Virus record (IMG/VR): IMGVR_UViG_3300029989_000172
Span: 1 to 21,487 of that record
Strand: one strand, 5' to 3'
Length of the DNA: 21,487 nucleotides
Origin: a virus
How positions within the stretch are numbered: position 1 is the first letter of the stretch; each line of letters opens with the position of its first letter. The notes below the pieces were generated by a model. It did no database searches, was not told where the DNA came from, and saw nothing but the letters and a program-made list of their open reading frames with translations. Made by a program: the position numbers and the translations under genes. This document shows positions 105-20,764 of the stretch, piece by piece.

Positions 105-1475
105 ATGAGCATTAAAAAGATTTTCGACAAAATTGCGAATGAATCGAGTACCAATGAAAAAATGGCGATTCTATCCAGATACAAAGACAATGAACTCTTA
201 GTAAAGGTTCTGTATGCGGCTTGCTCTAAAAGAGTTAAGTACTACATCAAACAATTACCACTTTATGAGAAATCGAGTACAACGTTTGATCTCGATTGGG
301 CTTTAAATCAACTACCAGCTTTAAGCAATCGTGAAGTCACAGGCTATGCCGCACATCAATATTTGATGAAGATACTCACGCAACTTCAACCAGACGATGC
401 ATACATTATTGAGCGAATCATCGACAAGGACTGTAAGATCGGCATTGGCACACGCAATATCAATAAAGTTATCCCAAACCTGATTGAGAAAACAGGCTAC
501 ATGGGCTGCAAACCTTACTCAAAGGAAGGCCTAATTAAATTATTAGCTAAAGGCGATTGTGTTAGCCAAGAGAAGATGGATGGCAGATATATGAATTGTA
601 TAATTCAGGGCGGCGAATTAGCAAATGAATCCAGACAAGGTGAACCAACTATTTTAGAAAATCCATTATTCTTTTCAGAATTAATTAAGTTAAAGGATTG
701 TGTTCTAAATGGTGAGCTAACAATGGGTGGGGAAATATCACGATTCGAAGCAAATGGTATTATAGCCTCACTGATAAGCATTTCAACTAAGAAGCTTGCA
801 GGCGATGATGTTACAAAAGAGGTGGTAAAGTTTGAGCTAAAGCATATGGATTACTATGAAGCATTGAAGTTGGTAAAATACACTACTTGGGATATTCTTA
901 CCATTGACGAATACTTCTCACGAAAATGCGTCAGACCCTACAAAGTTAGATTTGCTGAATTAGAGGAAACTTTGAAAGGATTCAAGATGATCTCAATTGT
1001 CGAAACAAGACAGATAAAAAACATTGAAGATGCTATGGATCATTTCAAAGAAATTGTGACAAGAAATGGCGAAGGAACGGTCGTAAAATCCTTAGAGGGC
1101 GTCTGGATGGATGGTAAACCAATTTGGCAGCAAAAAATAAAAAAAGAGGTAAATCTTGATCTTAGAATCACAGGTTTTAATTACGGGACTGGTAAAAATT
1201 CAGAGCTAATTTCGAGTGTCAATGTCGAATCAGAAGACGGATTATTAAAAACCTCACCGACAGGACTTGATGAAGATGAAATGGCTTATGTTACAGTAAA
1301 TCAGGATATATTGCTAAATACAATTCTTGAAGTTAAATGCTCTGGTTTATCACAAGACAATAAAGGTAATTATTCTGTGTTACATCCAGTATATAAAATA
1401 CGCCGAAGTGATAAAAATTCAGCCAATACCTTGGCTGAATGTATTGAAATTGATAAATCATGTTTATCGTTATAA
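105..1475 (+). CDS. lig: ATP-dependent DNA ligase, T4 gp30-like
   Basis: Seals nicks in duplex DNA using ATP, through a lysyl-AMP enzyme intermediate, during phage replication and repair. The nucleotidyltransferase motifs are visible in order: motif I K157-M-D-G160 with the adenylated lysine, a motif III-like NGEL at 202-205, motif IV EGTVVK at 323-328 and motif V WQQKIK at 341-346. The active-site lysine lies almost where it does in T4 ligase (K159), after a similar helical N-terminal region, and the length (456 aa) is close to T4 gp30 (487 aa). The C-terminal ~100 residues would be the OB-fold domain. No promoter element of the type used downstream is present before it. Its last 6 bp overlap the end of the convergent homing endonuclease gene, so that cassette lies immediately behind the ligase. 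The family call is firm; T4-like rather than another viral ligase is judged by eye. Confidence 0.93.
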   Translation: MSIKKIFDKIANESSTNEKMAILSRYKDNELLVKVLYAACSKRVKYYIKQLPLYEKSSTTFDLDWALNQLPALSNREVTGYAAHQYLMKILTQLQPDDAYIIERIIDKDCKIGIGTRNINKVIPNLIEKTGYMGCKPYSKEGLIKLLAKGDCVSQEKMDGRYMNCIIQGGELANESRQGEPTILENPLFFSELIKLKDCVLNGELTMGGEISRFEANGIIASLISISTKKLAGDDVTKEVVKFELKHMDYYEALKLVKYTTWDILTIDEYFSRKCVRPYKVRFAELEETLKGFKMISIVETRQIKNIEDAMDHFKEIVTRNGEGTVVKSLEGVWMDGKPIWQQKIKKEVNLDLRITGFNYGTGKNSELISSVNVESEDGLLKTSPTGLDEDEMAYVTVNQDILLNTILEVKCSGLSQDNKGNYSVLHPVYKIRRSDKNSANTLAECIEIDKSCLSL

Positions 1476-2234
1476 CTTAAGAGCATACCAACCGACATAT
1501 TCTCCAAATCTGTTTAACACCTCCCTTTTCATATTTTTATATGCGTATATAGGCTTACCATTATTGTATGATGATTTTCTAAGAGCAATCAATGGTAAGC
1601 CTAAATTTTTACATGTAGGTTCAAAGTTACCATTGCATTCAACGACTATATTGCCAAGATTATCATAGATATTAATTCTTATTGCTGCTGGATTTTTTGA
1701 TCCTGAAAATCTTTTTAACATACGTTTAGACATTTTATCACAATTTTCATTTGATAGTTTTACGCCTATACGCCCTTTTGCCGCATTTATGTTATGCTCA
1801 GCTGACTTAGGTATGCCTTTTAAGGCTACTGAATGTTTTAGTTTTGTTGCATCACTTTGTTTAACGCCAAGTTTTGCTTGCCTCATTTTTTCTCTCGAAG
1901 CATCTGACAGAACATATTCACTACGATAGCCTCCGCCTACAGTCATATTATATCCATTTACATATGTGCTATAATAATTAACATAAAATATTTCACGAGC
2001 ATTAGCTTCTTTTAAAGACATTATATCTTTCTCCAATATTTCCTCATTAAAGTTTTCAATACCATATTTTCTGATAGCTTGATGAAATTGATATTGCGAA
2101 TTTTTTGAAACAGAATATAAATGATCATATTTTCGCAATTCCAAACCTCGGCAAGTAAGTCCTATATATGATTTGCCATTTAATTTATTTGTAAATTTAT
2201 ATATTAAGTATATTTTATTTACGATTCTTTTCAT
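1470..2234 (-). CDS. GIY-YIG homing endonuclease with NUMOD3-like repeats
   Basis: A site-specific DNA endonuclease of the free-standing phage type, which promotes its own spread by cutting genomes that lack it. The N-terminal nuclease domain shows L10-I-Y12 and Y23-I-G25 (the GIY and YIG motifs), basic residues R29/R34 for the catalytic arginine, and a probable metal-binding glutamate at E81 in REIFYVNYY. Residues ~109-150 hold NUMOD3-like DNA-binding repeats (DASREKMRQAKLG, then related segments). The C-terminal part ends in VGWYALKL. At 254 aa it is a normal size for the family. It runs against all its neighbours: its stop overlaps the ligase end by 6 bp and its start overlaps the RHH gene by 20 bp, so it is translated from the same minus-strand message as that regulator. 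The opposite orientation suggests an inserted mobile cassette. Confidence 0.9.
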   Translation of the reverse strand: MKRIVNKIYLIYKFTNKLNGKSYIGLTCRGLELRKYDHLYSVSKNSQYQFHQAIRKYGIENFNEEILEKDIMSLKEANAREIFYVNYYSTYVNGYNMTVGGGYRSEYVLSDASREKMRQAKLGVKQSDATKLKHSVALKGIPKSAEHNINAAKGRIGVKLSNENCDKMSKRMLKRFSGSKNPAAIRINIYDNLGNIVVECNGNFEPTCKNLGLPLIALRKSSYNNGKPIYAYKNMKREVLNRFGEYVGWYALKL

Positions 2235-3935: not shown

Positions 3936-4826
3936 ATGGCTGAAAATATTATTTACGGCGTAAAGACAGGCGACAAATATCATTACATTGGAAAGACCAG
4001 TAAAAAGGTAAATGCTGATGGCGATCTAAAGAGGTCGAAAATTCAAACATTATATCATAAGGACAGTATTCGTAAAATATTTGAAGATAATACTTTTATT
4101 GATATCGAGCCTTTATCTGTTGTCGCTGACGACGAGTGGTTTGACGAGAAGCTATCGCAAGTTGTAAAAAAATATAACGAAAAAAATCCTCTGGTAAATG
4201 CACAATGGATGCTAGACGGTAAACGTGGCTTTTGGGACGGTACGCAAGGCTATTGGGTAGGTAAGACACGTGACGCAAATACGTTGCTTAAACTGTCTGA
4301 AAGTAAGTATAAACAGGCTGTACAATACGATATTAATGGCTGTCAGATTAAAATATGGAATTCGATAAAAGAAGCCGCAACTAAAGTCTTTAAAGATTAT
4401 AAAATTATTAAAGGCTCAGGCTGTTCTTTATTATATTCAATACTTTCCAGTGCAACATTGAAAACAAGATTGCGACATGGCTCATATTGGTTTGGAAGTG
4501 ACGAGTTGATAGAGTTGTTCGGCGTTATTCCAACAAAACTAAAGTTTGATTCCATACGAGAACATGAAAAACAGAAACGAAGGGATAATCATAAAGTCTA
4601 TGAAAAAATTGTGTGTAGCATGTACACTGTGAATCAATTCAATATAAAAGGGGAGCTTATCAATAAATTTGCTAATATTTATGAGGCGTCCTATCTATTA
4701 AATTTGTCAGTCAAGCAAATAAGAACTATATGTAGAGGCGAAAAAGTGTTTACACGTGTGTTTTTAAAATATGGCGAAAAAACTAAACAGCCAATCAACC
4801 AAGAAAAACTATGGAAAGTTTCTTAA
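3936..4826 (+). CDS. GIY-YIG-like homing endonuclease with two NUMOD1-like domains
   Basis: Probable DNA endonuclease of a selfish free-standing type. The N-terminus has I6-Y7-G8 and Y17-I-G19 in the sense of GIY-YIG (IIYGVK, then YHYIGKTS), although the spacing is short and the domain is divergent. Residues ~125-150 match the NUMOD1 helix-turn-helix pattern (AVQYDINGCQIKIWNSIKEA). A second NUMOD1-like unit lies at ~231-270 (VNQFNIKGELINKF, then SVKQIRTICRGE). Such domains give site specificity in phage homing enzymes. At 296 aa it fits the family. It is preceded by a host-type promoter rather than the common phage element, and sits alone between two transcription units, which supports an insertion. 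Whether the nuclease domain is still active cannot be judged. Confidence 0.75.
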   Translation: MAENIIYGVKTGDKYHYIGKTSKKVNADGDLKRSKIQTLYHKDSIRKIFEDNTFIDIEPLSVVADDEWFDEKLSQVVKKYNEKNPLVNAQWMLDGKRGFWDGTQGYWVGKTRDANTLLKLSESKYKQAVQYDINGCQIKIWNSIKEAATKVFKDYKIIKGSGCSLLYSILSSATLKTRLRHGSYWFGSDELIELFGVIPTKLKFDSIREHEKQKRRDNHKVYEKIVCSMYTVNQFNIKGELINKFANIYEASYLLNLSVKQIRTICRGEKVFTRVFLKYGEKTKQPINQEKLWKVS

Positions 4827-13992: not shown

Positions 13993-14910
13993 ATGGAAAA
14001 TACTTACAAAGGAAATAAGAATAACTCTTGCATGGGTGCTTACAAAGATACCCTTGATATCAAACTGACTGACGCCTGTAATGGCGATTGCGCATTCTGT
14101 ATCGAAAAGGGCGGAAAGCTTAGCGATGCTTCTGACGTACAGTCATTTATCGATAAGGTTAAGGGAATTAACCCTAGATCAGTATTGGTCTTAGGCGGTG
14201 AGCCTTTCGTTTATCCAAAGCTTGTTGAGTTCATTCAGGGTATCAGCAACAGGGAAATCTTCATCACTACCAATGGCAGTGGCTTGAAAAACAAACGCAT
14301 CGTCGAACAGCTTGCGCCTTGTCTCACAGCATTAAACATTTCGCTGATGCATTATGATATGGTTAAGCATACCGAAGTGACCAAAGTAGTCTTAAAACCG
14401 TACCATATCGGAGAAGCTATTGAAATCTTGCACAAGTATCATGTGTCAGTAAGAATAAACGTTTTATTGTTAAAAGGCTACATGGATAATATTGAAGACT
14501 GTAAGAAAATGATTGACTTTGCCGAATTTCTTGGCGCAGACGATATCAGGTTCTCAGAGGTTCAAAATCAGCCAGACATGTATGTTGATGCCAAATTGAT
14601 TTTCAAAGGCTTAAACGCTAATCCATATGTTGATGGATGCGAACAGGTGCTTTCCAATAACAAAATCAAAGTTATCGTTAAACAGACATGTGGTCTTGTG
14701 AACTGTAACAAAAAGGATGGTATCACCGTCAGTAATACAACTCGTGCCAATTTTGTCAATGCTGGTGTTCTTTATCCAGACTTACTTCATTCACCTGATG
14801 GATGGGTAGTTAAAAATAGCGACCCTGACTGTCACAGTACTGGTTGTCATAAAACAACTTCATCTGGTGGTTGTAGCTATGTTCCTTCACGAAGCAGCGG
14901 CGGCTGTTAA
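13993..14910 (+). CDS. Radical SAM enzyme with Cys-rich C-terminal tail
   Basis: A radical S-adenosylmethionine protein: C29-x3-C33-x2-C36 binds the 4Fe-4S cluster that cleaves SAM, GGEP at 68-71 contacts the SAM amino group, and TTNG at 92-95 is the expected later strand. The core follows the MoaA/SPASM-like layout and its 305 aa length fits. The last 100 residues hold further cysteines (QTCGLVNCNKK, then C280, C285, C294 and C305), the final ones in a Gly/Ser/Cys-rich tail that ends SSGGC. These could bind an auxiliary cluster. The substrate is unknown. The motif is CX3CX2C with no sign of the deazaguanine enzyme QueE, so DNA-base modification is not supported. The neighbours are a lipoprotein and a small membrane protein upstream and an unknown gene downstream. 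Confidence 0.88.
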   Translation: MENTYKGNKNNSCMGAYKDTLDIKLTDACNGDCAFCIEKGGKLSDASDVQSFIDKVKGINPRSVLVLGGEPFVYPKLVEFIQGISNREIFITTNGSGLKNKRIVEQLAPCLTALNISLMHYDMVKHTEVTKVVLKPYHIGEAIEILHKYHVSVRINVLLLKGYMDNIEDCKKMIDFAEFLGADDIRFSEVQNQPDMYVDAKLIFKGLNANPYVDGCEQVLSNNKIKVIVKQTCGLVNCNKKDGITVSNTTRANFVNAGVLYPDLLHSPDGWVVKNSDPDCHSTGCHKTTSSGGCSYVPSRSSGGC

Positions 14911-17211: not shown

Positions 17212-17463
17212 ATGTTTGATACAAAAGAATCATTACTACTGGCAATACTAAACTGTATGCCAAATCCCGAACTGATAAACAATTTGGACTTTACGTCAGA
17301 GCCACAATCAATTATTTTCAAATGGCGTGGTAATATATTCAGGATTTATCTAAGCGGTGAAGTAGAGGAAATTATCAGCGAAGGTGTATCGTCTTTTTCA
17401 AATTGCTCTATTTTATTGCAAACGCTATTGAAAAATTATTGGGCTTCGAAATTATTTGTGTAA
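17212..17463 (+). CDS. Unknown protein, 83 aa
   Basis: No family recognised. Starts MFDTKESLLLAILNCMPNPE; the middle is beta-like (SIIFKWRGNIFRIYLSGEVE) and the end helical (SILLQTLLKNYWASKLFV). It follows the NUDIX gene by 4 bp. Its TAA stop (17461-17463) is part of the first box of promoter copy 15. Confidence 0.72.
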   Translation: MFDTKESLLLAILNCMPNPELINNLDFTSEPQSIIFKWRGNIFRIYLSGEVEEIISEGVSSFSNCSILLQTLLKNYWASKLFV

Positions 17464-17487
17464 CCTTTTCTTATTTCTAACGTATAA
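17458..17487 (+). promoter_or_regulatory. Bipartite phage promoter element, copy 15
   Basis: GTGTAACCTTTTC followed by CGTATAAGTA; G 17460 and C 17481 are 21 nt apart, and the second box is 31 nt before the ATG at 17512. It drives the three genes with the shared N-terminal peptide. The TAA is the stop of the upstream gene. Confidence 0.75.
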
Positions 17488-17511
17488 GTATTTATAAAAA
17501 TATACGTCACA

Positions 17512-18522
17512 ATGAATAAATTATCAAGGATTATCAATGAGGAAGTTAATAGGTTCGAAGGATGGTTCGGCGGACATGATGAACAACTAACTCCACGTGA
17601 GGAAAAGTTCGTAGACGAATTTTCAAAGCTTAGTAATGATCAACTTAGAGATATACTTGCCAAAATTGATAAACAAGGCAATGATAATTATGCGGCTGCA
17701 AGTCGTGACTTCAACTACTATCAATCAGAAGAAGCTCAGGATTTATACGCTAAGGAAAACCTAATCAAAAAACTCATTGAACGTAGATATTGGGAAACCA
17801 AGAAGAAACTATTCTTCGGTCAACCATTCCTAGGAAGTAAAATCATTTTCATATCAACTCCCGACTATAACGAAGATGAAAGACAAAGAAAAATATTAAC
17901 TATTTACATGGCTAATGACACCGTATTCGAATACAACTTTGGATATAATGACTTTAGCTGGGAATCTGATATCGAATCCGACACTTCTGGCGATTATAAA
18001 AGTTATGGCAGTCAAACACTTAGTCACAAAGTTGACCCTAGTAAAGCGATCCTAACTACGAAAGAAGTTGGTCTTTTGAACAAAATCGTAAGATATAATA
18101 ATCTTAAATTCAATAAGATACCTCTAGTAAGTGCCAATGTAACTACTAAAGATGCTGCTGCACCTGTTATGCCTGAAATGAGTGATGCTGATTTTCAATG
18201 GCTGATTGGTCTAGGTAGTGATAAAAATAAAATCACAAAGATTTCAGCAGATTCAAATATTAACGAGTACGGCGGTTTTGCCACTTTGTATATGTATGTT
18301 GGAGAGTCATGGGACAGTGAGACATATAGTTACACTGTTTGGTACAACGAGCATTATAAGATTACTAAAGAAGAATTTAAAACCAACTACGTAATGAGTA
18401 GAAGTGAGGCTAAGGAAGTTCAAATTCTTGAAGCTGGCTTATATGAACCAATGATTAAAGCAATTGCACAAATCAATCCAAAGAGTAAATATTTAACAAA
18501 AATTCGTAGATATACAAGATGA
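17512..18522 (+). CDS. Unknown 336-aa protein with capsid-targeting-like N-terminus
   Basis: The first residues MNKLSRIINEEVNRFEGW match the start of the next two proteins (M-x-x-L-x-x-I-I-x-E). In T4, internal capsid proteins and Alt carry short N-terminal peptides of similar form that direct them into the prohead and are cut after Glu; here a cut after IINE would remove ten residues. The rest is unknown: a charged helical region at ~28-105 (TPREEKFVDEFSKLSNDQLR), then a mixed region with acidic, Ser-rich stretches (WESDIESDTSGDYKSYGSQT), and a second domain from ~220 (MSDADFQWLIGLGSDKNK). It has no membrane segment and no recognised enzyme motif. First gene of a three-gene unit. Confidence 0.82.
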   Translation: MNKLSRIINEEVNRFEGWFGGHDEQLTPREEKFVDEFSKLSNDQLRDILAKIDKQGNDNYAAASRDFNYYQSEEAQDLYAKENLIKKLIERRYWETKKKLFFGQPFLGSKIIFISTPDYNEDERQRKILTIYMANDTVFEYNFGYNDFSWESDIESDTSGDYKSYGSQTLSHKVDPSKAILTTKEVGLLNKIVRYNNLKFNKIPLVSANVTTKDAAAPVMPEMSDADFQWLIGLGSDKNKITKISADSNINEYGGFATLYMYVGESWDSETYSYTVWYNEHYKITKEEFKTNYVMSRSEAKEVQILEAGLYEPMIKAIAQINPKSKYLTKIRRYTR

Positions 18523-18550
18523 TAAGTATTTATATTTATATCAAATAATT

Positions 18551-19147
18551 ATGAATTTATTAAAGATCATCAAAGAGGCTATCAATGAATTAGAGGACGA
18601 CTATCGTGGTGTGCATACAGCACCTACTAAGGAAGATGCTCCTATGAATGATCTTACTGGCACTTATCCCGAAGATATTTATACAGCTAAAGGAACATTA
18701 TATTATGGCGACGGTTTCCCTTTCGATAACATTGCCCATAGCATAATTGTGTCTGCAAGAAACAAGCCAAATAAGCAAATTATTATCTACAGAGCAGTGC
18801 CAAAGGTATTAAGCAATGAAGAAAAAATTTGGGACTATAAGAAGCAACAAGCATATATTCAAAAGTATGGCAAAATGCCACCAAATATTGATAACTGGAA
18901 GAATCGAAGCGAGTACTACGGGTATTTATCTGATGAAATTGACAAGTTGTCTAAAATGCCAGAGGAAGATTTCGACAAAATAAAAATTAGTGATGGCGAT
19001 TGGGTGACAATTGATTTGCCTTATGCTAAAGTACATGGCGACAGTAATTTAGGCAAGGGTAAATATAGAATATTGAGAAAGACGGTGTCAGCACATAACT
19101 TGTATACCGATGGAAACAGTATGCATGAATGGGGTTATAACATATAA
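18551..19147 (+). CDS. ADP-ribosyltransferase-like protein with capsid-targeting-like N-terminus
   Basis: Probably transfers ADP-ribose from NAD to a target. The fold is suggested by YRAVP at 80-84 (candidate R81 of an R-S-E type site), GDWVT at 149-153 with PYAKVHG after it, and EWGY at 193-196 (candidate E193). The region before R81 (TYPEDIYTAKG, YYGDGFPFD, IIVSARNKP) also resembles ART-like domains of phage polyvalent proteins. The first residues MNLLKIIKEAINELEDD repeat the peptide of the neighbouring proteins, and IIKE-A is close to the T4 internal-protein processing site (FIAE-A). T4 Alt is likewise an ART packaged in the capsid, so an injected enzyme that modifies host proteins is a reasonable inference. 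Activity and target are unknown. Confidence 0.75.
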   Translation: MNLLKIIKEAINELEDDYRGVHTAPTKEDAPMNDLTGTYPEDIYTAKGTLYYGDGFPFDNIAHSIIVSARNKPNKQIIIYRAVPKVLSNEEKIWDYKKQQAYIQKYGKMPPNIDNWKNRSEYYGYLSDEIDKLSKMPEEDFDKIKISDGDWVTIDLPYAKVHGDSNLGKGKYRILRKTVSAHNLYTDGNSMHEWGYNI

Positions 19148-19149
19148 TT

Positions 19150-19809
19150 ATGAAATTATCAGAAATAATCAACGAAGAAATTAACGAAATGGCTTATCCA
19201 GCCTCTTTCAGCATGGAAGCATTTAAGAATGCCAGATCATTCGCTGCAAAGGCTAAGTATTGCGCAGAGAGGCTACAGAGGATATCATCAGGTTCAGGTA
19301 GGATTGTTTATAAGATCGACGAAGAAAAGGTCTTAAAACTGGCTAAGAATCAAAAAGGAATAGCTCAGAACGAAATGGAATCAGATCAGTACGTTCAGCA
19401 ACAATATGGCGATATCGTCACAAAATGTTTTGAGTGGGATGATACTGATAATTATTGGGTGGAAATGGAATTAGCTCAAAAAATGTCTGCTGGCGAGTTT
19501 AAAAGAATAGTCGGCGTACCTTTGAATGGCGAAAATTCTTTAGAAATGTGGCTTACTCAAACATTTAAGAATACAAGGGAAAAAGTTTCACCAGAGGTTA
19601 ATGAATTCTTAGGCGAATCCGAATTTGGTTATAGCCTACAAGACTTTATAGGAAGCTACGGAATGCAGATGTATGACCTTTTTAGACTAAGTTCTTGGGG
19701 CAAAGTAAAAAGAGACGGCAAGGATGCTGCTGTTATTGTGGACTTTGGACTAAGCGAAGGCGTATGGAAAGACCATTATGCTCCAAAAAAACAACAAAAT
19801 AGGTGGTAA
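19150..19809 (+). CDS. Protein-kinase-like protein with capsid-targeting-like N-terminus
   Basis: Motifs of a divergent protein kinase fold can be seen: a short Gly-rich turn SGSGRIVYKI at 47-56, a candidate ATP-binding lysine K63 in KVLKLAKN, a helix glutamate near E75-E77, and DFG at 198-200 (VIVDFGLSE). No HRD-x4-N catalytic loop is evident; DLFRLSSWG at ~176-184 lies where it would be expected, so activity is uncertain. The first residues MKLSEIINEEINEMAYP repeat the peptide shared with the two preceding proteins. It lies 2 bp after the ART-like gene and is the last gene of the unit. A role as a packaged, injected enzyme that alters host proteins is inferred from the shared N-terminus only. 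Confidence 0.72.
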   Translation: MKLSEIINEEINEMAYPASFSMEAFKNARSFAAKAKYCAERLQRISSGSGRIVYKIDEEKVLKLAKNQKGIAQNEMESDQYVQQQYGDIVTKCFEWDDTDNYWVEMELAQKMSAGEFKRIVGVPLNGENSLEMWLTQTFKNTREKVSPEVNEFLGESEFGYSLQDFIGSYGMQMYDLFRLSSWGKVKRDGKDAAVIVDFGLSEGVWKDHYAPKKQQNRW

Positions 19810-19810
19810 G

Positions 19811-19840
19811 TTGTAACCTTTATTTATGAATTACGTATTT
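19811..19840 (+). promoter_or_regulatory. Bipartite phage promoter element, copy 16, variant second box
   Basis: TTGTAACCTTTAT followed by CGTATTT in place of CGTATAA; G 19813 and C 19834 keep the 21-nt distance. The second box is 23 nt before the ATG at 19857. This is the weakest second box of the set. Confidence 0.6.
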
Positions 19841-19856
19841 ATATAAAAATATTGAC

Positions 19857-20321
19857 ATGAGAACTGATAAAATACTTATTAAAGAGGATTACGTTTCAAG
19901 ATTACGTGACCTTGCTGGCATATCAACAGTTATCAATGAGGACGTTGACAAAATCTTAATCAAAGAAGATATGGATGCACCTGTTGAAACAGTGCTTAAC
20001 GGCATGAGCAATCAGAAAGCAAGAACATATGTTGGAAACGTTGCAAGAAAAGCCTTTCACACAGGTATTTATAGAGACGATTCATGGCAACCAGTAGCCG
20101 CAATCTACAAAGCATTAGATAATGCTGGCATTGACTACGATATGACAGGTTCACAGTATTCGCCTGAATTTCCAAATACATATAAGAAATGGGAACTCAC
20201 TTTCAAGTTTACAAACGACAAAGGTAGACCCAGCGAGTTGCATGGACAAATAATGGCGGCTGGTGCAGGTTCAGTTGAACAGCCATTAGACAGATATGAT
20301 ATGAACTTCACGATATATTAA
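19857..20321 (+). CDS. Unknown 154-aa protein with a repeated N-terminal octapeptide
   Basis: The octapeptide DKILIKED occurs twice, at residues 4-11 and 31-38, encoded by different codons, with YVSRLRDLAGISTVINED between. The repeats resemble the IIxE peptides of the three preceding proteins, and R-L-R-D-L-A-G-I is a kind of segment I recall from small structural proteins of T4-like phages (unverified). The remaining ~110 residues form an unknown domain (MSNQKARTYVGNVARKAFHT, then WELTFKFTNDKGR). It is the only gene under promoter copy 16. Packaging into the capsid is possible; nothing shows it directly. Confidence 0.78.
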   Translation: MRTDKILIKEDYVSRLRDLAGISTVINEDVDKILIKEDMDAPVETVLNGMSNQKARTYVGNVARKAFHTGIYRDDSWQPVAAIYKALDNAGIDYDMTGSQYSPEFPNTYKKWELTFKFTNDKGRPSELHGQIMAAGAGSVEQPLDRYDMNFTIY

Positions 20322-20416: not shown

Positions 20417-20764
20417 ATGAAAGTAATAATTGCTGGCGGCAGAGACTTTTACGACTATAAGAAATTAAAGTCAGCTTGCTCGTATTTCTTGAAAAATGAG
20501 CCAAATGCAGAGATTGTAAGCGGTGCTGCTAATGGGGCAGACAAGCTTGGCGAACGATATGCCAGAGAACATGGACTAAGAATATCAAGTCACCCTGCTG
20601 ATTGGGATAGGTATAAAAAGAGTGCTGGCTACATTCGAAATAAAGAAATGGCAGAATATGCTGATGCTTTAATCGCTTTCTGGGATGGTAAAAGCAAAGG
20701 TACTAAGCACATGATTGACCTTGCCAGAGAGCATGGATTAAAAGTTCGAGTAATTTCTTATTAA
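20417..20764 (+). CDS. YspA/DUF2493-type SLOG-family protein
   Basis: A small Rossmann-like protein of the SLOG superfamily, related to DprA and LOG proteins. It shows G7-G-R-D10 in IIAGGRDF, SGAANGAD at 35-42 (nucleotide-binding loop), RNKEMAEYADALIAFWDG at 74-91 and KSKGT at 92-96, in the usual order and spacing; 115 aa is the normal length of the single-domain form. Members are thought to bind nucleotides or nucleotide-derived ligands, and their role in phages is not settled. It is the only gene under promoter copy 17, ending just before promoter copy 18. Confidence 0.9.
   Translation: MKVIIAGGRDFYDYKKLKSACSYFLKNEPNAEIVSGAANGADKLGERYAREHGLRISSHPADWDRYKKSAGYIRNKEMAEYADALIAFWDGKSKGTKHMIDLAREHGLKVRVISY

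Follow-up and report, generated by a model that had tools for sequence, protein, structure and literature searches.

Unrelated neighbouring proteins of a virus, probably including a kinase-like enzyme, begin with similar peptides that likely load them into the virus head

Introduction

Why should neighbouring genes encode proteins that begin alike and otherwise differ? The question is raised by four consecutive open reading frames (ORFs) in the virus record IMGVR_UViG_3300029989_000172, the whole of which, 21,487 bases, was analysed and is referred to here as the window. The products of the four genes are probably unrelated to one another and include at least one kinase-like enzyme, and the similar peptides at their starts are likely to load them into the virus head for injection together with the viral DNA. 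An earlier note on this DNA had likened the peptides to those of phage T4, and had proposed that the block encodes enzymes that are packaged and injected into a Bacteroidota host.

Short N-terminal capsid-targeting sequences (CTS) are classical in T4 (PMC9026906). The internal proteins of T4 carry propeptides of 10-19 residues, and in IPIII the first 10 residues are required, with processing at residues 8 and 10 (PMC9026906). Internal proteins of the T-even phages are diverse defence proteins that have the tag alone in common (PMC3012670), and in one host strain IPIII acts in the cytoplasm (PMC9391042). An N-terminal capsid signal is also found in DarB of phage P1 (PMC9024508), and S77 proteases are common to two groups of jumbo phages (PMC7824862). 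ADP-ribosyltransferases (ARTs) and kinases of the polyvalent proteins have been predicted to be injected (Iyer et al., 2017; PMC5512222), and for ARTs, packaging into the head has been predicted on the strength of gene neighbourhood and of fusions to head proteins (PMC9503650). The earlier note was therefore too strong in regarding such a system as not described, injected ARTs and kinases having already been predicted (PMC5512222; PMC9503650); it is the tagged, modular form that is new. Among the papers listed in searches of an open-licence library, none was seen to describe such shared CTS cassettes in phages of Bacteroidota or in jumbo phages.

Results

The ORFs were confirmed on the plus strand at 17512-18522 (protein 1, 336 residues), 18551-19147 (protein 2, 198 residues), 19150-19809 (protein 3, 219 residues) and 19857-20321 (protein 4, 154 residues). 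All four, with identical proteins, are present in a longer record of the same phage (54,877 bases); a second longer record (61,797 bases) begins inside ORF 2 and carries the remainder of the block. The peptides MNKLSRIINEE, MNLLKIIKEA and MKLSEIINEE do open proteins 1 to 3, and DKILIKED does occur twice in protein 4, as the earlier note had said. With a slash for a possible cut, the predicted propeptides are MNKLSRIINE/E in protein 1 (17512-17541; from the sequence, the N-terminal score and Blastp), MNLLKIIKE/AINE/ with two possible cut sites in protein 2 (18551-18589; from the sequence, relatives and Blastp), and MKLSEIINE/EINE/MAYP in protein 3 (19150-19188; from relatives and Blastp), where the E/MAYP border is also present in two homologs (L115 and L116). 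Protein 4 has, by sequence, a first KILIKE/D site at 19857-19886 and a second at 19941-19967; between them, at 19890-19940, lies a second type of tag, YVSRLRDLAGISTVINE/D, assigned by its RMxELAGI-type motif.

The resemblance is confined to the starts. Blastp among the four proteins paired the starts of proteins 1 and 3 (11 residues, 82% identity) and of proteins 2 and 3 (14 residues, 57%), and outside these pairings gave E 0.95 or worse, which agrees with the claim that the bodies are unrelated. Summed over the three N-termini, the BLOSUM62 score came to 96. None of 100,000 triples drawn at random from the other N-termini of the same phage reached that value, and the block triple scored highest among the 193 adjacent ORF triples of this phage. 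Among 18,721 other pairs of N-termini, seven reached the lower block pair score (25) and one the higher (46). A hydrophobic-x-Glu triplet ends the tag in the window proteins and is kept in relatives with one exception (L159).

A second tagged pair lies outside the window, in a longer record of the same phage. One member (L013:16747-17106) starts MVNIQTIIAEEIQSLNE/N and belongs to Pfam ART-PolyVal (PF18760; 38.0 bits against a curated cut-off of 31.2, E 3.5e-9); the gene preceding it encodes a HELTH metallopeptidase-like motif behind the start MKNINKIISKCLEED, its Pfam matches all being sub-threshold.

Protein 3 provides the clearest enzyme. The motifs SGSG, VLKLA and DFG, which had suggested a kinase in the earlier note, are present, and fold and invariant residues support that reading. 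The model, built on 29 alignment rows, has a mean pLDDT of 90.3. Foldseek matched it to 36 PDB chains at E <= 0.001, and the 50 matches listed comprise 47 protein or small-molecule kinases and three SAICAR synthases, with probabilities of 0.96-1.00 and TM-scores to the query of just 0.32-0.42. In VIA the best Z was 8.8, and 6 of 999 chains reached Z >= 8. Residues K63, E77, D176 and D198, which we take to be the catalytic Lys, the helix-C Glu, the catalytic Asp and the DFG Asp, are invariant in the 29 rows of alignment A3, from which we infer that protein 3 is probably active as a kinase. Sequence support for the family is thin: Pfam Pkinase matches 1 of its 29 members, and at E 1 the window kinase itself has no match among the Pfam kinase families.

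For protein 2 the case is more divided. The motifs YRAVP, GDWVT and EWGY, on which the ART-like assignment was based, are present; neither a Pfam ART match nor a significant PDB fold match was obtained. The protein matches phrog_2579 and has the PHROG label 'ParB C-terminal domain'. In its family (best 80 of 318 stretches, window phage included) the invariant residues include R81, W151, Y158, A159, H162 and E193. The model has a mean pLDDT of 92.7 and no PDB match at E 0.001. Over its sheet there are weak matches to KptA (Z 4.6, 72 residues, 2.7 A), CNFy (Z 4.3) and 2aua (Z 3.8), which we take to be ART-like folds and which are the only such rows recognised among the 50 fold matches listed, most of these being limited to the helical stretch 85-144. 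Matches in BFVD were chiefly relatives from its own family, one of them named a large polyvalent protein. No Pfam ART family matched any of 40 members of the ART-like family at E 0.01, and profile comparison of this family with four ART-PolyVal-type rows showed no relation (probability 0.1%). Searches for KptA (PF01885) in 12 tagged or related phages, and with the ART-like profile in 16 records sharing the promoter-like element described below, found none. We keep the label 'ART-like' for protein 2 as a lead.

Proteins 1 and 4 have no assigned function. Neither matches a Pfam or PHROG family at E 1 or anything in the collection of named phages, and the matches of protein 1 in viral_contigs are confined to the same phage.

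In other phages, the same kinase and ART-like bodies recur behind different tags, with a hydrophobic-x-Glu close to the edge of the domain. Kinase relatives start with MKISELLNE/APLP, MKFADFLNE/APLP, MRITDIIGESAIDE/APLP, MKLILTEQQYNKIFE/MAYP or VLIGE/MAYP, and ART-like relatives have MKFKLWLEN, MINFKEYLMES or MDILEIIKSEIRHVLNE before DYRG. The site was placed by regular expression, which left three ART-like and four kinase rows unplaced, and duplicates were counted once; L122 is represented without its N-terminus; the rows of each family are mutually related, so that the counts are not independent. All 26 distinct kinase rows that could be placed by script have [LIVMF]xE within about nine residues ahead of the domain; by eye, three of the four unplaced rows have it as well and L159, from phage RaK2, is without it. 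For the ART-like family, counted without rows open at a contig end, a site is present in 19 of 21 distinct short-start rows, against 12 of the 34 rows with a long start (p = 5e-5, without correction for relatedness). The homolog in the T4-like Vibrio phage 1.081.O starts MYSFSEFINLAES and that of XacN1 has FLSE/APLP, both starts being T4-like; a relative in MW202462 has a long untagged N-terminus and comes from a phage without the prohead protease considered below.

Several phages have sets of tagged genes of their own. In Alishewanella phage Slickus01, for which 187 of 193 coding sequences were examined (six left out: two spanning piece borders, four short), nine consecutive genes at 86664-93266 have starts of the KIDxLYESLLEE type, an ART-PolyVal (4.4e-11) among them. 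Outside this run, a protein of the S-adenosylmethionine (SAM) lyase family at 51086-51691 (L026:1086-1691; PF23780, 3.9e-13) has the tag-like start MNFVQLLESEINALSES, which suggests that it may be a packaged anti-restriction enzyme. Four genes within 2.8 kb of phage G022 start with variants of KVRITESQLRGLVRRMIKE, and in phage G013 the RMxELAGI-type motif falls within the first 45 residues in 8 of its 10 occurrences.

The window phage was also placed by its highly regular promoter-like element, GTAACCTTT-N12-CGTATAA, found upstream of the block at 17460-17488 (plus strand). The two longer records (L013-L018) contain 43 distinct copies, this one included; 33 of the 42 plus-strand copies sit 7-35 bases ahead of an ORF of at least 60 residues. 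Among the matches listed, the element also occurs in many copies in G078, G079, G080, G081 and G083, and the scan gave G079, with 50 copies, as the closest relative among those matches. G079 matches 22 of 198 ORFs of the window phage at a median identity of 60.7% (G022 matches 2, G013 2 and G049 10), and its N-termini include MLNIKEIINEE, MDIIKIINEEIDGLSKGYIYHGT and MNINKIINDE. One further listing of relatives took in the best 80 of 588.

A gp21-type prohead protease (PF03420) was found in relatives, G079 included, and not in the window phage's own fragments. The search covered 42 of 80 ART-like loci, 31 of 49 kinase loci and 16 promoter loci. The protease is present in three of four named relatives, in 18 of 72 distinct IMG/VR records carrying the bodies (17 over the cut-off), in 7 of the 16 promoter-sharing records and in all 12 searched records of at least 200 kb. 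Of the 42 records with the ART-like body, 8 of the 27 with a site have the protease (one under the cut-off), against 0 of the 15 without (p = 0.019).

In G022, G013, G049 and G079 the gene for the protease comes first, then one for a scaffold-like protein and then one for a capsid protein, the latter two named by position and appearance with no family search. The capsid proteins of these phages have LINE/S, MLNE/V, MMNE/A or MINE/S ahead of a conserved body, MINE/S being the site of G079, and sites in relatives also include VISE/S; here capsid proteins were named by position or record annotation, and the border between site and body is our reading. The ORF matches of G079, with its protease, its MINE/S site and its tagged starts, mean that a phage close to the window phage combines this kind of tag with a head protease of the T4 type and a corresponding site in its capsid protein. 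In G013 the scaffold-like protein (178258-179769; L193:18258-19769) is a neighbour of the prohead protease and has RMRMLAGIVKPINE at its end. This is also the motif of the second N-terminal tag type of G013, and the tag may mimic the scaffold's own peptide. Cellulophaga phage phi4:1, from the group nearest to the window phage by DNA ligase, was tried as a head model and dropped, its annotation naming no T4-type protease or scaffold; PF03420 was not searched there.

The same bodies also occur as parts of larger proteins. The window proteins are short ORFs with a single body; relatives in L034, L138, L145 and G092 are multidomain. Borders in fusions are KLNE/M between GNAT and kinase, LDE/M between deaminase and kinase, and LTE/E between ART-PolyVal and the ART-like domain. 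In L148 a kinase is joined to a YHYT protein through LNE/G, the Slickus01 counterparts, matched by eye, being separate tagged ORFs, and L075 has a tag at its start and a similar internal copy before the ART-like domain. The kinase domain lies inside open frames of 882-1819 residues in G082, G083, G084 and G092. The G092 protein (L442:3430-8862; 1810 residues) has kinase, poly(A)-polymerase-like and 2H phosphoesterase-type domains, and in it [LIMVF]xE/S occurs seven times in 877 linker residues against none in 933 domain residues (p = 0.006; one protein, with domain limits partly set by us). This protein also has a sub-cut-off match to the anti-CBASS protein Acb1.

Discussion

The best reading of the block, to which we give a probability of roughly three in four, is a T4-like packaging cassette placed on a swappable set of effectors. 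The shared N-terminal peptides would be capsid-targeting propeptides of the T4 kind: a tag of about 9-13 residues, ending in [LI]xE, would dock its protein into the prohead scaffold core during head assembly, a gp21-type (S77) prohead protease would cut after the Glu and free the protein inside the head, and the freed protein would be ejected into the host together with the DNA. Early effectors that can be swapped would form the cargo: in the block, the small kinase, the ART-like protein and the two proteins without assigned function, and elsewhere in the same genome the ART-PolyVal and the possible metallopeptidase with the same kind of start. We infer packaging, cutting, injection, enzymatic activity and host. 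For the packaged and injected enzymes of the earlier note, comparison lends good support to the proposed capsid targeting, through the Glu near domain borders, the phage-specific tags, the sites in capsid proteins and the T4-type protease of relatives. The Bacteroidota host is plausible, the DNA ligase being nearest to those of Cellulophaga phages (48.7%).

Several observations weigh against this reading. PF03420 was found in none of five records (the two longer ones of the window phage and three other fragments), and in several long records that carry the bodies it was not found either (G007, 148 kb; G010, 120 kb; G053, 143 kb; G073, 188 kb). The RaK2-type kinase is untagged although RaK2 has the protease, and the giant proteins of G082, G083 and G092 that begin with the kinase have no clear tag. 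The promoter-like element of the block is the common type of this phage and not a demonstrated late promoter. The tag stretches are of low confidence in both structure models (proteins 2 and 3). With a broad regular expression for the tag, enrichment at the N-termini of the window phage is marginal (5 of 12 occurrences, p = 0.057), the corresponding values being p = 0.024 in G079, 0.0004 in G022, 0.011 in G013 and 0.41 in G049; the argument therefore rests on the adjacent triple and on the comparison with relatives.

A first rival is a different kind of signal: the shared peptide would serve localisation or interaction away from the prohead core, for example at the tail, in a compartment made by the phage or with a chaperone of the host, and its Glu would be an uncut part of a helix. 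The low-confidence models do draw the tags as short helices, packaging is deduced by comparison, and the window phage's own fragments gave no protease. We nevertheless consider such a signal unlikely. In bodies that are unrelated, and also where bodies are fused, the Glu lies close to the edge of the domain. Starts like those of the tagged effectors also occur near the protease: in G013 a small protein encoded two genes upstream of it starts MKISKSDLEQLIKEE, and in G049 the one directly after it starts MKITEQQLKNLIKE. The nine tagged genes of Slickus01 belong to a phage whose annotation names portal, prohead core and major head genes. The giant kinase frames, which come from jumbo phages with the same promoter, raise the further thought that the window proteins are fission products of polyvalent multidomain proteins, a published class (PMC5512222), and that LxE is what is left of uncut acidic linkers. 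This we hold to be less probable still: the borders keep their hydrophobic-x-Glu triplet next to different partners (GNAT, deaminase, ART-PolyVal and others), and in the G092 polyprotein the sites are confined to linkers. Least probable of all, and largely refuted, is a functionless recent duplication of the start of a gene. That three of the genes are adjacent would fit it, but IINEE is encoded by ATT ATC AAT GAG GAA in protein 1 and by ATA ATC AAC GAA GAA in protein 3, and such synonymous differences speak against a fresh duplication of DNA; moreover, genes far from the block in the same phage, and genes of G079, have similar starts.

A packaging cassette of the proposed kind would resemble the CTS of T4 IPI-IPIII and Alt, cut by gp21, in being a short N-terminal peptide that is common to unrelated proteins and ends in hydrophobic-x-Glu; the protease, scaffold-like and capsid gene order of relatives and the presence of an ART among the tagged proteins are further likenesses. 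It differs from T4 in the tag sequences (IINE, KIDxLYESLLEE, ITESQLRGLVRRMIKE, RMxELAGI), in a cargo that includes a small kinase, and in modules that are also fused with LxE borders; packaging is here a prediction. With polyvalent proteins it shares ART, kinase and GNAT domains predicted to be packaged and injected, some relatives being giant fusions (PMC5512222), whereas the window has separate tagged ORFs and a kinase outside the Pfam kinase families at E 1. P1 likewise has an N-terminal signal that loads a large anti-restriction protein, DarB, into the head, but mapping placed that signal within the first 30 residues of a single protein, and it is not a peptide shared by many (PMC9024508). 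In SPN3US and phiKZ, ejection proteins in the heads of giant phages are also cut after Glu by a gp21-like protease (PMC5694885; PMC10052503); the SPN3US motif is A-x-E, and its propeptides are mostly long (111-254 residues, with two of 20 and 24).

One tentative extension, which we rate as somewhat less likely than not, is that large T4-type phages have a portable, phage-specific [LI]xE 'address and cut' cassette that serves both as an N-terminal tag and as a border in giant polyproteins. Kinases, ARTs, acetyltransferases, tRNA-repair and 2H phosphoesterase domains and SAM lyase, packaged together as a string of enzymes directed against the host, might thereby be split by the prohead protease into separate effectors for injection, and the tag would list the arsenal that a genome injects. 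If the packaging reading is correct, the tag would flag, from sequence alone, those unknown genes of large phages that act in the first minutes of infection. It would also predict exact mature N-termini, which makes the idea testable by proteomics, and would offer new peptides for loading proteins into phage heads.

Other features of the window and the phage

The window DNA has no similarity to the collection of named phages, and an Rfam scan of the window gave no match at the gathering score. Directly 3' of the tagged block, at 20417-20764, lies an untagged protein of the YAcAr/SLOG family (PF10686, 3.8e-17). Further upstream, a radical SAM protein (PF04055, 1.1e-13) with a C-terminus rich in Cys, Ser and Gly is encoded at 13993-14910, and two ORFs, at 1470-2234 (minus strand) and 3936-4826 (plus strand), appear by eye to be GIY-YIG or homing-endonuclease-like. 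Elsewhere in the same phage, an rIIA-like protein (L018:1103-4765; tblastn matches annotated rIIA) is followed by an ORF that is rIIB-like by eye, both being accessory genes of the T4 type. Beyond the right end of the window, the phage itself encodes a type I-B CRISPR-Cas effector set (Cas5, Cas3, Cas8b, Cas7 and Cas6; L004:4038-9910 and L016:10115-12320), and its CRISPR array has at least 23 repeat copies, some of them degenerate.

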